Shown one piece after another: positions 6,742-13,447 of a stretch of DNA of 23,528 nucleotides. The notes beneath the pieces were generated by a model. The model saw only the letters and a program-made list of their open reading frames with translations. It was not told where the DNA came from and did no database searches. Both the position numbers and the translations under genes were made by a program. Source of the stretch: a virus; IMG/VR virus record IMGVR_UViG_3300047649_000003, positions 1-23,528 of that record. One strand, given 5' to 3'. The number at the start of each line of letters is the position of its first letter. Position 1 is the stretch's first letter.

Positions 6742-7227
6742 ATGAGCGCCACAGTATATAGCTTTAAAGATTTAGTGGGGGCGTTTTCTCATACGTCTGT
6801 TGGACAAATATCAATAGGCGGGGCAACTAATGGGACAGGGCAAATGGGTATTGGGCAAATAGTTGTGCATATGACAAACGATATAACCACTCATGAAATT
6901 AGTATTGATGGGGGGATTATACCGTTTGTCGTTCCTGTTTATAACGGCACAATTTCAATCCAATGCCAACAAACTTCCCTGTTCAATTATTATTTACTGG
7001 ATTGGTACAACAGTTTAAAATTGTCGGCTACATCAAGTGGATCTATTCCTGCTGATGTTTCAAATTGGGCTAACGCAGTTATGCTACTAAAAAATATAAA
7101 GCATGGAACGCAGCACAATATAACAGGTATTAGTCCACAAAATAGTCCCGATAAAACATATGCAGCGCAGGCCGGATCAGTAAACTGGTCGCTACTGGCA
7201 GCAAACATAGAAAGCATTAATATTTAA
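6742..7227 (+). CDS. Tail tube protein paralogue 1 (DUF3277-type)
   Basis: A 161-residue protein with the DUF3277 tail-tube pattern: YSFKDLVGAFSH at the N-terminus, GIGQIVVHM, GTISIQCQQTS in the middle, and SPQNSPDKTYAAQ followed by VNWSLLAANIESI at the end. It is clearly related along its full length to the next gene, with blocks YSFKDL.GAF.H, IG.GQ..VHM, (S/T)I.CQQTS and SPQN.PDKTYA.Q in the same order. The differences are a 10-12 residue insertion near residue 25 and a diverged segment near 45-60. It starts only 2 bases after the sheath stop and has no good Shine-Dalgarno sequence (CAGGCTTAATT), so it probably depends on translational coupling with the sheath. It could be a tube component used at one end of the tail or in smaller amount. 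Confidence 0.75.
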   Translation: MSATVYSFKDLVGAFSHTSVGQISIGGATNGTGQMGIGQIVVHMTNDITTHEISIDGGIIPFVVPVYNGTISIQCQQTSLFNYYLLDWYNSLKLSATSSGSIPADVSNWANAVMLLKNIKHGTQHNITGISPQNSPDKTYAAQAGSVNWSLLAANIESINI

Positions 7228-7238
7228 GGAGGGAAACA

Positions 7239-7688
7239 ATGTCCACTACTTATAGTTTTAAAGACCTCACGGGTGCGTTTACTCATTCTTTAGCGGGATC
7301 ATATGTATTCGGCGGCCAAATTGGATTAGGGCAAGTTGTTGTTCATATGGCTACAGAAAAAACAGCAACCGATACAGCCGCCGATGGAACCGTTCAAATA
7401 TCCGCCATTGCTGGTGATAGCGGCACAGTTTCGATTGAATGCCAACAAACTTCCGATTTACACAAATTTTTATTAGTGTGGGCTAACATCGTTAAAACTG
7501 CACTAAATAACAATGATATTAGCGCGTGGGCAACGGCATCGATACTATTAAGAAATTCAGTTGATGGCACTAGCCATACTGTAGGCGAAGTTAGTCCACA
7601 AAACATCCCAGATAAAACATATGCAAGTCAAGGTGGTAAGGTTACTTGGGTTTTATCTGCTGGGGACATTCAAAGTTTAACGGCATAA
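7239..7688 (+). CDS. Tail tube protein paralogue 2 (DUF3277-type), probable main tube subunit
   Basis: A 149-residue protein with the full DUF3277 pattern: TYSFKDLTGAFTH, GGQIGLGQVVVHMATEKTATD, the ADGTVQISAIAGDSGTVSIE block, and IPDKTYASQGGKVTWVLSAGDIQSL at the end. It is the closer of the two copies to the family pattern as I know it. Tube proteins polymerise as stacked hexamer rings inside the sheath. It is preceded by a near-perfect AAGGAGGG ribosome site 5-6 bases before its ATG, much stronger than that of the upstream copy, so it is likely the major tube protein. No frameshift or truncation is seen. Confidence 0.8.
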   Translation: MSTTYSFKDLTGAFTHSLAGSYVFGGQIGLGQVVVHMATEKTATDTAADGTVQISAIAGDSGTVSIECQQTSDLHKFLLVWANIVKTALNNNDISAWATASILLRNSVDGTSHTVGEVSPQNIPDKTYASQGGKVTWVLSAGDIQSLTA

Positions 7689-7713: not shown

Positions 7714-8166
7714 TTGAAAAGCAGAAATTATGAACCAGAGTATAAAGACGTTGAAATTGCTGGAACTAAATATAGAGTTGAAAAAATCCCCGCAATGACA
7801 GGGTGTTGGATTGCTACACAGATTTTTAGCAAAATGATGCCGATGGGGATGGAAGCGCAGGCTGGATTAGGAAACTTGCCAGAAAATAGGCCATCTATGA
7901 CAGAAAAAGAGTTTTATGATTTGCAGAGTTATTGCTTAATGGCTTGCAAACGATACGAAGTTGTAGGCGAAATGGAAACTGCAATGCCGATTATGTCAGG
8001 TATGGGGAAATTCGCTATTCCCCAATTGAAATATGATTTTACAGCTGTTATCGGATTAACTGTACACGTATTGGAGTATAATATAAGCTCTTTTTTCAAC
8101 GGAGGGGCCTTAGAGGCATTGAAAGAAACCTTGAAGGATTTACCCCTGTTCAATACCCCAGATTAA
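7714..8166 (+). CDS. Tail assembly chaperone, short (zero-frame) product
   Basis: A 150-residue protein starting with TTG, six to seven bases behind AGGAGG (7701-7706). It follows the tail tube and precedes the tape measure, the conserved place for tail assembly chaperones, which bind the tape measure protein and help the tube polymerise around it; they are not part of the virion. The sequence begins YEPEYKDVEIAGTKYRVEKIPAMTG, resembling other chaperones that start with a strand-rich domain of the type seen in XkdN-like proteins, and then is helical. The reading frame ends at 8166, but coding-like sequence continues in the -1 frame to 8336; see the fusion entry. Position and frameshift together make the role convincing, though the family name is not certain. 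Confidence 0.75.
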   Translation: MKSRNYEPEYKDVEIAGTKYRVEKIPAMTGCWIATQIFSKMMPMGMEAQAGLGNLPENRPSMTEKEFYDLQSYCLMACKRYEVVGEMETAMPIMSGMGKFAIPQLKYDFTAVIGLTVHVLEYNISSFFNGGALEALKETLKDLPLFNTPD

Positions 8167-8336
8167 ACCCGTTTTTATGGGCACCTGTTGCATCTAAAGA
8201 GTGGCAGCAACACGAATTAAATGACGGAACATATACAGTCGAAGATTTAATCGACTGGCATGAAATGGCAGCTGTTCGAGCTGAAAACGAACGATTATTC
8301 CAAGAATACATGGACGAAAAGCGCAAACACCAATAA
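7714..8336 (+). CDS. Tail assembly chaperone, -1 frameshift fusion product (207 residues)
   Basis: The -1 frame is open from 8082 to the TAA at 8334-8336 and has no ATG, GTG or TTG before a late ATG around 8266. The extension therefore cannot be a normal independent gene, yet it reads as real protein: NPFLWAPVASKEWQQH, then DGTYTVEDLIDWHEMAA and ENERLFQEYMDEK. Slippage at T TTT TTC (8091-8097) would join 128 zero-frame residues to 79 residues read from 8097. Long-tailed phages, including lambda (gpG/gpGT), commonly make a short and a long chaperone by such a slip, and the long form's extra domain binds the tape measure. The tape measure starts 22 bases later. The frameshift is inferred from sequence alone, with good support. 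Confidence 0.72.
8091..8147 (+). promoter_or_regulatory. Candidate -1 ribosomal frameshift signal (slippery site plus stem)
   Basis: The heptamer T TTT TTC at 8091-8097 is in the correct X XXY YYZ phase for the chaperone frame. Five bases later, AGGGGCCTT (8103-8111) can pair with AAGG (8134-8137) and CCCCT (8143-8147), giving a 9-bp stem with a five-base bulge on the 3' side and a 22-base loop. A 5-base spacer is within the usual range for stimulating structures. A shorter alternative hairpin, GCCT-TAG-AGGC at 8107-8117, is mutually exclusive. Pairing was checked by eye; no energy was calculated. Confidence 0.65.
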
Positions 8337-8357: not shown

Positions 8358-10322
8358 TTGGGTATAGATGTTCTCAAACAATATTTAGTATCTTTAGGAT
8401 TCAGCGTAAATAACGAACAATTCAATAAAATGAATCAAACTCTTACGGATATGTCTAAAACTGTTCAAACTCACACAGAAGGCATGACAAAGGCTTTTGT
8501 CGTTGCTTCTACCTCAATTGTTTCTGCTCTTGGTGGCGTGGCAGTAGCTACCGCAGGACTGGTAGATCAAGTCGCTAACGCTGATCTTGCCTATCAAAAA
8601 TTTGCCCTTAGAATGTATACTACTGCTGATGTAGCTAAACAGCTTAAAATTGTTACCGGGGCAATGGGCGAGAATATCAATGATATTGCGTGGGTTCCTG
8701 AATTAACTCAACGTTATACCGCATTGATGCAACAAGCTAAACAAATGGAGACTCCTGGAGATGCCGAGAATGGGCTAAAGAAAGTTCGGGATATTCGTTT
8801 TGAGTTTACTCGTATGAAAATTGAAGCTATGTATGGTATGCAGTGGATAGCTTATTATCTAATTAAATATTTAGGCGGCCCACTTGATGCTGTAGAAAAT
8901 AAATTAAAAGCAGTTAATGACTGGATAACTAAAAATATACCCATATGGACGCAAAAAATAGCACAATGGGTTATGGCTTTCATTGATTTCGGTAAAAGCA
9001 TTGTAAGATTTGCTAATACAGTTATTGATGCCTTTAAACGGTTATGGAATTCCATGGGTGGTGGAGAAAAAGCGTTTACCGGATTCGGATCTCTTATTAC
9101 AGCTTTCTTCTTATCTGGTCCGTTGGGAAAAGCAATGATGCTAATGGGAACATTTTTATTATTGTTAGACGATTTTTATGCCTATATTGATGGTAGAAAG
9201 TCCTCTAAGACCATGGCTCCTCTGTGGAAACACCTGACAGATATTAAAGGAGCAATGCCCGATTTTGGAGACGGATTAGATGACCTAAAGAAAAAAGTAG
9301 AATCATTAGCTATCAGTGTAGGAAAATTAGCTAATGATTCTCTTAAATCACTTAAAGATCAATTAACAACTATATTCAGTATCATTTGGGATTCATTGAA
9401 AAAAAACGGGGTTTGGCAAAGTTTTACAAATGCTTTAGACCATATAACAAACGGCATAAACGCTATGATTCGAGCATTGTCACAATCAATGGTGCAATTA
9501 GGAATATTGTCAGCAGACCAAAAATATCGGGACTTTTGGACATGGTTTAGTGATGAGTTATCTAGAGAATTAAAGCAATTGTTTGCGGTTGGCAAATTAA
9601 TTGGCGACATACTTAAAATGCAAGCTCAATTGTCGGTAGGCGATTTTAAAGGTGCATTAGAAACAATTAAAGGCATTAGCATTATACAAGACATTAAAGA
9701 TGCAAATGCTGGGGGTAATTTACACGGGACAAGTCGTTCATGGGATGGATCGGCTGGTAACAAGGAAATGATGGGATTAGCAAATCAAGTTTCTTCTCAA
9801 ACTGGAATCCCCGCAGACCTTATATATGGGCAATGGGGTCATGAATCAGGAAACTTTTCTTCTGATCTCGCCAAAGAAAACAATAATTTTGGCGGGCTGA
9901 AAAATTCAAGTGGCGATTATATGAATTTTGATTCCCCACAAGATTTCGCTAGTTATTTTGCTAAATATATTAAATTATATGCAGAAGATGGCATTTTGCA
10001 GGCTAATACACCCGAAGAGTATGCTGCAGCATTGAAACATGGTAGATATTTTGAGGATTCTGTATCTAATTACGCTAATGGAGTAAGTAATTTTTCTTCT
10101 CAATACGATAGTGCTAATAATTTAACCCCTTCTGGATATAGCCCATATGGTTCTGTGGGAGATTACGCTTACAACAGCAATAATACTAGCGCAGGAAGCA
10201 CAAATTCAGCTGTATACAATATTACAGTGAATGCTACTTCAGGGAACCCACAAGGAATTGGAAGCTCTGTTATCGATGCGATTAAAACTGCTAGAATGAC
10301 TCAAGCTTTTAGTGGGACGTGA
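8358..10322 (+). CDS. Tape measure protein with C-terminal glucosaminidase-like domain
   Basis: A 654-residue protein starting at TTG behind GGGAGGTGA (8342-8350). The N-terminus and middle are largely helical with hydrophobic stretches (about 45-70 and 250-275), typical of a tape measure that sets tail length and crosses the envelope during infection. Residues about 455-600 look like a lysozyme-fold glucosaminidase (FlgJ-like): GIPADLIYGQWGHESGNF, with the likely catalytic Glu at residue 496, then NNFGGLKN, FASYFAKYIKLYAE and AAALKHGRYFEDSVSNYANGV. This domain would cut peptidoglycan locally for DNA entry. The C-terminal tail (VYNITVNATSGNPQGIGSSV) is a pattern seen at the ends of tape measures. 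At about 0.15 nm per residue, the whole protein would predict a tail near 100 nm, a rough inference. Confidence 0.8.
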   Translation: MGIDVLKQYLVSLGFSVNNEQFNKMNQTLTDMSKTVQTHTEGMTKAFVVASTSIVSALGGVAVATAGLVDQVANADLAYQKFALRMYTTADVAKQLKIVTGAMGENINDIAWVPELTQRYTALMQQAKQMETPGDAENGLKKVRDIRFEFTRMKIEAMYGMQWIAYYLIKYLGGPLDAVENKLKAVNDWITKNIPIWTQKIAQWVMAFIDFGKSIVRFANTVIDAFKRLWNSMGGGEKAFTGFGSLITAFFLSGPLGKAMMLMGTFLLLLDDFYAYIDGRKSSKTMAPLWKHLTDIKGAMPDFGDGLDDLKKKVESLAISVGKLANDSLKSLKDQLTTIFSIIWDSLKKNGVWQSFTNALDHITNGINAMIRALSQSMVQLGILSADQKYRDFWTWFSDELSRELKQLFAVGKLIGDILKMQAQLSVGDFKGALETIKGISIIQDIKDANAGGNLHGTSRSWDGSAGNKEMMGLANQVSSQTGIPADLIYGQWGHESGNFSSDLAKENNNFGGLKNSSGDYMNFDSPQDFASYFAKYIKLYAEDGILQANTPEEYAAALKHGRYFEDSVSNYANGVSNFSSQYDSANNLTPSGYSPYGSVGDYAYNSNNTSAGSTNSAVYNITVNATSGNPQGIGSSVIDAIKTARMTQAFSGT

Positions 10323-13003: not shown

Positions 13004-13447
13004 TTACTGACGGTATAGCATCATATCTGTTTTCCATTCTCCATTTGGCCATGTTTTAGATAAAAAATATTTGTGTTCGATAACACGAACAATATTATTA
13101 TCGGATAATTCAACAATCAATTTTGAATCTACTTCTGGCGCGGGGAAAATTCCTCTGTTTCTAAGAAAATATGTGCAATTTACAACATATTTAGTATCTG
13201 ATATTTTTACAATATCATCAGTGTGGAGTGTCCAACCATTTAATTTACCATTATCTATGGTGATTTCATTTCCATAGATGTTTTTTAATGCGTCAAAATA
13301 TCTTCCTTCGACTTGGTAATCTACATTATATGTTCCGTTTAACGACTGAATTATTTCCTCTCTAGTCAAAATATTAGATTGTTCGGCAAATCCAACAGTA
13401 CAAAACATCATTAAGCCGATTACCAATATTATTATCTTCTTCATCAC
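13004..13447 (-). CDS. Secreted hypothetical protein; probable moron (cargo) gene on reverse strand
   Basis: A 147-residue protein and the only convincing reverse-strand gene of the window. The first residues (MKKIIILVIGLMMFCTVGFA followed by EQ) form a clear Sec signal peptide with a likely cut after GFA. There is no proper lipobox, so export as a soluble protein is favoured. The mature part of about 125 residues has aromatic and charged strands (YNVDYQVEGRYFDAL, KYVVNCTYFL, VIEHKYFLSKTWPNGEW) but I do not recognise a family. The start is GTG 13447 (8 bases from GGAGG at 13456-13460) or the adjacent ATG 13444. It ends flush with the spike stop. A candidate own promoter lies upstream. This isolated, reversed, exported gene inside a structural operon is typical of lysogenic-conversion cargo; function unknown. 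Confidence 0.72.
   Translation of the reverse strand: MMKKIIILVIGLMMFCTVGFAEQSNILTREEIIQSLNGTYNVDYQVEGRYFDALKNIYGNEITIDNGKLNGWTLHTDDIVKISDTKYVVNCTYFLRNRGIFPAPEVDSKLIVELSDNNIVRVIEHKYFLSKTWPNGEWKTDMMLYRQ

Follow-up and report, generated by a model that had tools for sequence, protein, structure and literature searches.

We found that the gene beginning at position 7714 of a 23,528-nt virus sequence (IMG/VR record IMGVR_UViG_3300047649_000003; hereafter, the window) very probably (a probability of roughly 93%, judged from sequence comparison and structure modelling) produces a tail assembly chaperone in two forms, a short one and a 207-aa long one that would arise by -1 ribosome slippage at a T TTT TTC heptamer. 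This reading is supported by the families of both protein parts, the heptamer in 21 intact loci, the gene order, and the predicted fold, and these agree with the preliminary description of the region, which had proposed a tail chaperone made in two forms through a -1 frameshift. The biology is already known from lambda G/GT, P2 E/E+E', and the Vandenendeviridae; the window adds another phage branch, and the small addition made here is to interpret DUF6889 as the part encoded through the frameshift.

The zero frame runs on the plus strand from a TTG codon at 7714, with an AGGAGG ribosome-binding site directly upstream, to a stop at 8164-8166, and encodes the 150-aa short form (7714-8166). The heptamer (8091-8097, plus strand) occurs in this frame as TCT TTT TTC AAC, that is, in X XXY YYZ phase, and translation after -1 re-pairing would go on with CAA (Gln). 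In the -1 frame, no stop interrupts the stretch from 8082 (the nearest upstream stop is a TAA at 8079) to the one at 8334-8336. Its part from the slip site onward (8097-8336, plus strand) is a 79-aa extension that belongs to DUF6889 and would form the C-terminal 'T' part of the chaperone. The shifted long product has 207 aa and the junction NISSFF-QRRGLRG. As in G/GT-type genes, the in-phase heptamer lies where the zero frame overlaps a -1 frame that lacks a start of its own. On re-reading, both frames held as the preliminary description had given them, and so did the absence of a usable upstream start for the -1 frame, the phase of the canonical heptamer, the length of 207 residues, and the passage from SSFF to QRR. 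The distance between the extension stop and the TTG start of the tape measure gene (8358), which had been put at 22 bases, is 21 bases.

Profile searches assigned the zero-frame protein to the Pfam family Phage_TAC_15 (PF21822; 30 bits against a cut-off of 22, E 8.6e-7) and to the tail assembly chaperone family phrog_1688 (E 3.9e-9). The extension matched the Pfam family DUF6889 (PF21829; 28.3 bits against a cut-off of 23.9, E 1.4e-6), as well as phrog_4364 and phrog_3976, for neither of which the function is known. In NCBIfam, neither the chaperone nor the extension was matched, and a PDB sequence search with the extension returned chance matches only. In the model of the chaperone (pLDDT 81), a long helix (109-128) ends where the two Phe codons lie. 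Its best two structural matches were both chaperones, namely 5IR0 (PLE ORF19; Z 9.7, 100 aligned, 3.1 A), which is the tail assembly chaperone of the Vibrio satellite PLE1 (PMC12987554), and the HK97 chaperone 2OB9 (Z 6.3, 93 aligned, 4.9 A), the latter being suggestive only when taken on its own; the next match had a Z of 3.7. A family match above the cut-off, together with the predicted fold of solved chaperones, supports the assignment of the 7714 gene as a tail assembly chaperone. The extension was modelled with moderate confidence (pLDDT 76) and is predicted to be helical in its C-terminal half. The preliminary description had also presented the protein family as worth describing. This applies to the extension, which Pfam lists solely as DUF6889 and of which we found no mention in the literature searched; the zero frame, however, belongs to the named family Phage_TAC_15.

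The genes are arranged in the order sheath, two tube proteins, chaperone, and tape measure, which places the chaperone between the tail tube and tape measure genes in the manner of G/GT-type genes. The neighbours comprise a DUF3383 sheath, two KPP10_Orf10-like tube proteins, the tape measure protein, and a Dit-like protein. The tandem tube-like proteins (6742-7227 and 7239-7688, both on the plus strand) are 43% identical and both belong to phrog_280, and the second copy matches KPP10_Orf10 at E 6e-32; by analogy, this second copy is the expected partner of the extension domain. The tape measure gene (8358-10322, plus strand, TTG start) was identified by its position and by matches of its product to phrog_12506 (tape measure; E 0.0036 over aa 1-74) and phrog_22539 (function not known; E 3e-24). 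Its product would, again by analogy, be the expected client of the chaperone. The tape measure protein also carries a glucosaminidase (cell-wall hydrolase) domain at aa 474-584 (Pfam E 7e-12). Farther downstream, a 147-aa ORF on the minus strand (13004-13447) with a signal-peptide-like start and without a Pfam match lies amid the plus-strand tail genes.

Protein searches of virus contigs, genomes, and phage records, with either the chaperone or the extension as the query, supplied the relatives; the heptamer was not a criterion, and the extension ORFs were located with a profile blind to it. Counting the window, 21 loci were intact, and each of them had T TTT TTC or T TTT TTT at the same Phe-Phe codons and its extension in the -1 frame. 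These loci fall into 12 clusters at 60% identity and 4 at 50%, and the extension of the window is 26-51% identical to those of its 20 relatives. The first Phe codon was TTT in every intact locus (21/21), and the residue before Phe-Phe varied (Asp, Gly, Ser, Ala), its codon ending in T every time. The joint chance of this pattern from local codon use was 1e-15 (uncorrected) and 4e-7 with one lenient value for each of the 12 clusters at 60% identity; with the harshest clustering (4 clusters, 50% identity), it rises to 0.005 and the test becomes weaker. The conserved heptamer that the preliminary description had expected an alignment of homologues to reveal is thus present, with one further relative, described below, lacking it. 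Phage_TAC_15 was matched by all 22 chaperones tested (E <= 0.01), and DUF6889 by all 21 aligned extensions. Among 300 Negativicutes genomes, the six in which the chaperone profile was found were also the six with DUF6889 above its cut-off; a search of a plasmid collection gave no match.

The counts exclude two loci, namely a more distant chaperone-like gene (L027) and an UNVERIFIED record with a broken upstream frame in which GAT TTT TTC is present (L038); L029 is a duplicate of L028 in the chaperone region. The excluded L027 gene (1037-1456, minus strand) has a TTTTTTC followed by a 65-aa -1 extension that scores 28.9 bits against DUF6889. A further candidate locus (L019) was rejected, its DUF6889 score being 21 bits (below the cut-off) and the chaperone arrangement being absent. 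The virus record behind the window belongs to a metagenomic collection, a source that would be compatible with a frame break caused by sequencing error or by a broken gene. However, 21 loci, some of them in sequenced cultured phages, share the identical break at the same codons, and these relatives refute that explanation, to which we attach next to no credence.

Separate ORFs are annotated at the extension in the records of Edwardsiella phage ZHS and Proteus phage Myduc, which would suit a second part that is a small protein started on its own in the -1 frame. In the window, however, a scan of the -1 frame for ATG, GTG, and TTG found none before an ATG at 8265, which is without a Shine-Dalgarno sequence and would yield only 23 aa, whereas conservation reaches further upstream; a separate start was therefore rejected for the window. 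In 9 of the 21 loci, the first ATG, GTG, or TTG, if there is any, falls within the final 40 aa of the extension, and an SD-like stretch accompanies only one candidate extension start among all 21. Independent initiation is consequently very improbable as a general explanation. The exception among the relatives is Edwardsiella phage vB_EpM_ZHS (L037:2010-2689), the related chaperone of which has GAT TTT ATG instead of TTTTTTY and is followed by a second part in the -1 frame with an annotated ATG start; this chaperone may use another slip site or a separate start. Homologues with a separate start codon for the second part, which the preliminary description had named as evidence against a frameshift, are thus represented by the annotated ATG of ZHS, but the nine loci without such a start speak for the frameshift.

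Canonical in-phase heptamers are common in the window, with 25 across the 28 genes examined. A heptamer alone therefore proves nothing, and we dropped its rarity as an argument in itself; the weight of the argument falls on the conserved extension and the relatives. The heptamer at 8091-8097 is the only one of the 25 whose -1 frame outruns its gene (79 aa). In the tape measure gene, an in-phase AAAAAAC at position 9401 opens a 47-aa -1 frame that ends within the gene, and it is probably a chance occurrence.

The preliminary description had also drawn an imperfect bulged stem downstream of the heptamer (8103-8147, plus strand; 8103-8107 paired with 8143-8147 and 8108-8111 with 8134-8137). That drawing is correct and agrees with the minimum-energy fold predicted for the region (-14.6 kcal/mol), but the role of the stem as a conserved signal had to be dropped. 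For a sequence of this composition its stability is ordinary (z -1.09), and 29 of 200 shuffled versions folded equally well. Across ten aligned sequences, 47% of the cells were paired as the stem requires, inside the range of slid controls (23-64%), and RNAalifold found 0 consensus pairs in the same ten sequences. The relatives gave folding z-scores from -2.7 to +1.6 with unrelated folds, and the window had no match in Rfam. Among the pseudoknot-free folds modelled, we found no conserved or unusually stable stem that could act as a stimulatory downstream structure, and the heptamer itself appears to be what the frameshift depends on. A real frameshift that the stem stimulates in this lineage only would fit its status as the minimum-energy fold and its start 5 bases past the heptamer, which is a usual spacing; however, its ordinary stability, the loss of its pairs among relatives, the lack of a consensus fold downstream of the heptamer, and the report of P2-type TTTTTTG sites without a hairpin (PMC3091744) make such a role doubtful.

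The same lack of conserved RNA structure downstream of the sites, together with the fact that every site is a run of six or seven Ts, could also point to slippage of RNA polymerase in place of the ribosome, which would give mRNAs with an extra or missing U. We regard this as improbable. Six Ts is short for polymerase slippage, and the related chaperones of KPP10-like phages use GTTTTT. The T run is moreover always in X XXY YYZ phase, yet the conserved Phe-Phe codons would force that too. Ribosome slippage remains our preferred reading, and it can be set against the systems described in other phages.

Compared with lambda gpG/gpGT, the gene in the window differs in its protein family and in its heptamer, which is GGGAAAG in lambda. 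The likeness would lie in a two-form chaperone made by -1 slippage, in the gene position, and in the presumed role, and such two-form chaperones are widespread and, for lambda, well established (PMC5009743). The E / E+E' genes of P2 resemble the present case in their T TTT TTN heptamer and in a -1 shift between the tube and tape measure genes, and the TTTTTTG of P2-like phages likewise has no predicted or reported hairpin (PMC3091744). The extension here also weakly matches the P2 GpE family (E 0.046). However, the last base of the heptamer is G in P2 (Phe-Leu) and C or T here (Phe-Phe), and a Pfam profile search with the zero-frame protein gave no match to the P2 family.

The closest published case is that of phage Adele and other Vandenendeviridae, reported in 2025 with a GTTTTT motif (PMC12846349). 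These KPP10-like phages have a related sheath, tube (KPP10_Orf10), and chaperone, the slip lies at the same place in the chaperone, and the -1 extension reaches up to the tape measure gene. The conserved motif is GTTTTT there, whereas it is TTTTTTY here, and the tube locus is triplicated in Vandenendeviridae (PMC12846349), whereas the window has two tandem tube-like genes. The homologous chaperone of KPP10 matches the profile and carries GTTTTTC at the corresponding position, followed by an ORF in the -1 frame; its extension, however, is very divergent and only weakly matches the profile of the extension described here. In the Chaseviridae (Myduc, pEa_SNUABM_27, and Bp10), our analysis found the same arrangement with T TTT TTC, although the linker before the conserved part is longer and the records either leave the extension unannotated or give it as a short hypothetical ORF.

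In the mechanism that we propose, most ribosomes would terminate at 8166 and release the short form. A minority would slip back by one base with two tRNA-Phe, re-pairing from TTT/TTC to TTT/TTT, and would complete the 207-aa long form. We infer this tandem tRNA-Phe slippage from lambda and P2. If lambda gpG/gpGT is taken as the guide, the tape measure protein (8358-10322) would be coated by the shared part and the tail tube protein recruited by the -1 extension; with such a division of tasks, a low ratio of long to short form would matter for tail assembly. A separate study that tested two frameshift genes of tail chaperones obtained 6-7% (PMC3711429), which is a plausible order of magnitude here and not a measurement for this gene.

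DUF6889 is most likely, judging from these comparisons, the frameshift-encoded 'T' part of the chaperone. It is likely, with less certainty than the two-form chaperone of the window, that DUF6889 (with phrog_4364 and phrog_3976) is wholly the frameshift-encoded C-terminal half of Phage_TAC_15 chaperones in phages that infect several bacterial phyla, and that a bare T TTT TTY heptamer, with no conserved stimulator, sets the ratio of short to long form. The extension sits in a stretch without annotation in many phage records, and it is either such a gap or a hypothetical protein in most of those found, an annotation that this reading corrects. Reading DUF6889 as the 'T' part would give a testable role to a family that Pfam lists without a function, and the loci, with their T TTT TTY, variable preceding residue, and no stem, form a comparative set for what sets frameshift rates in phages.
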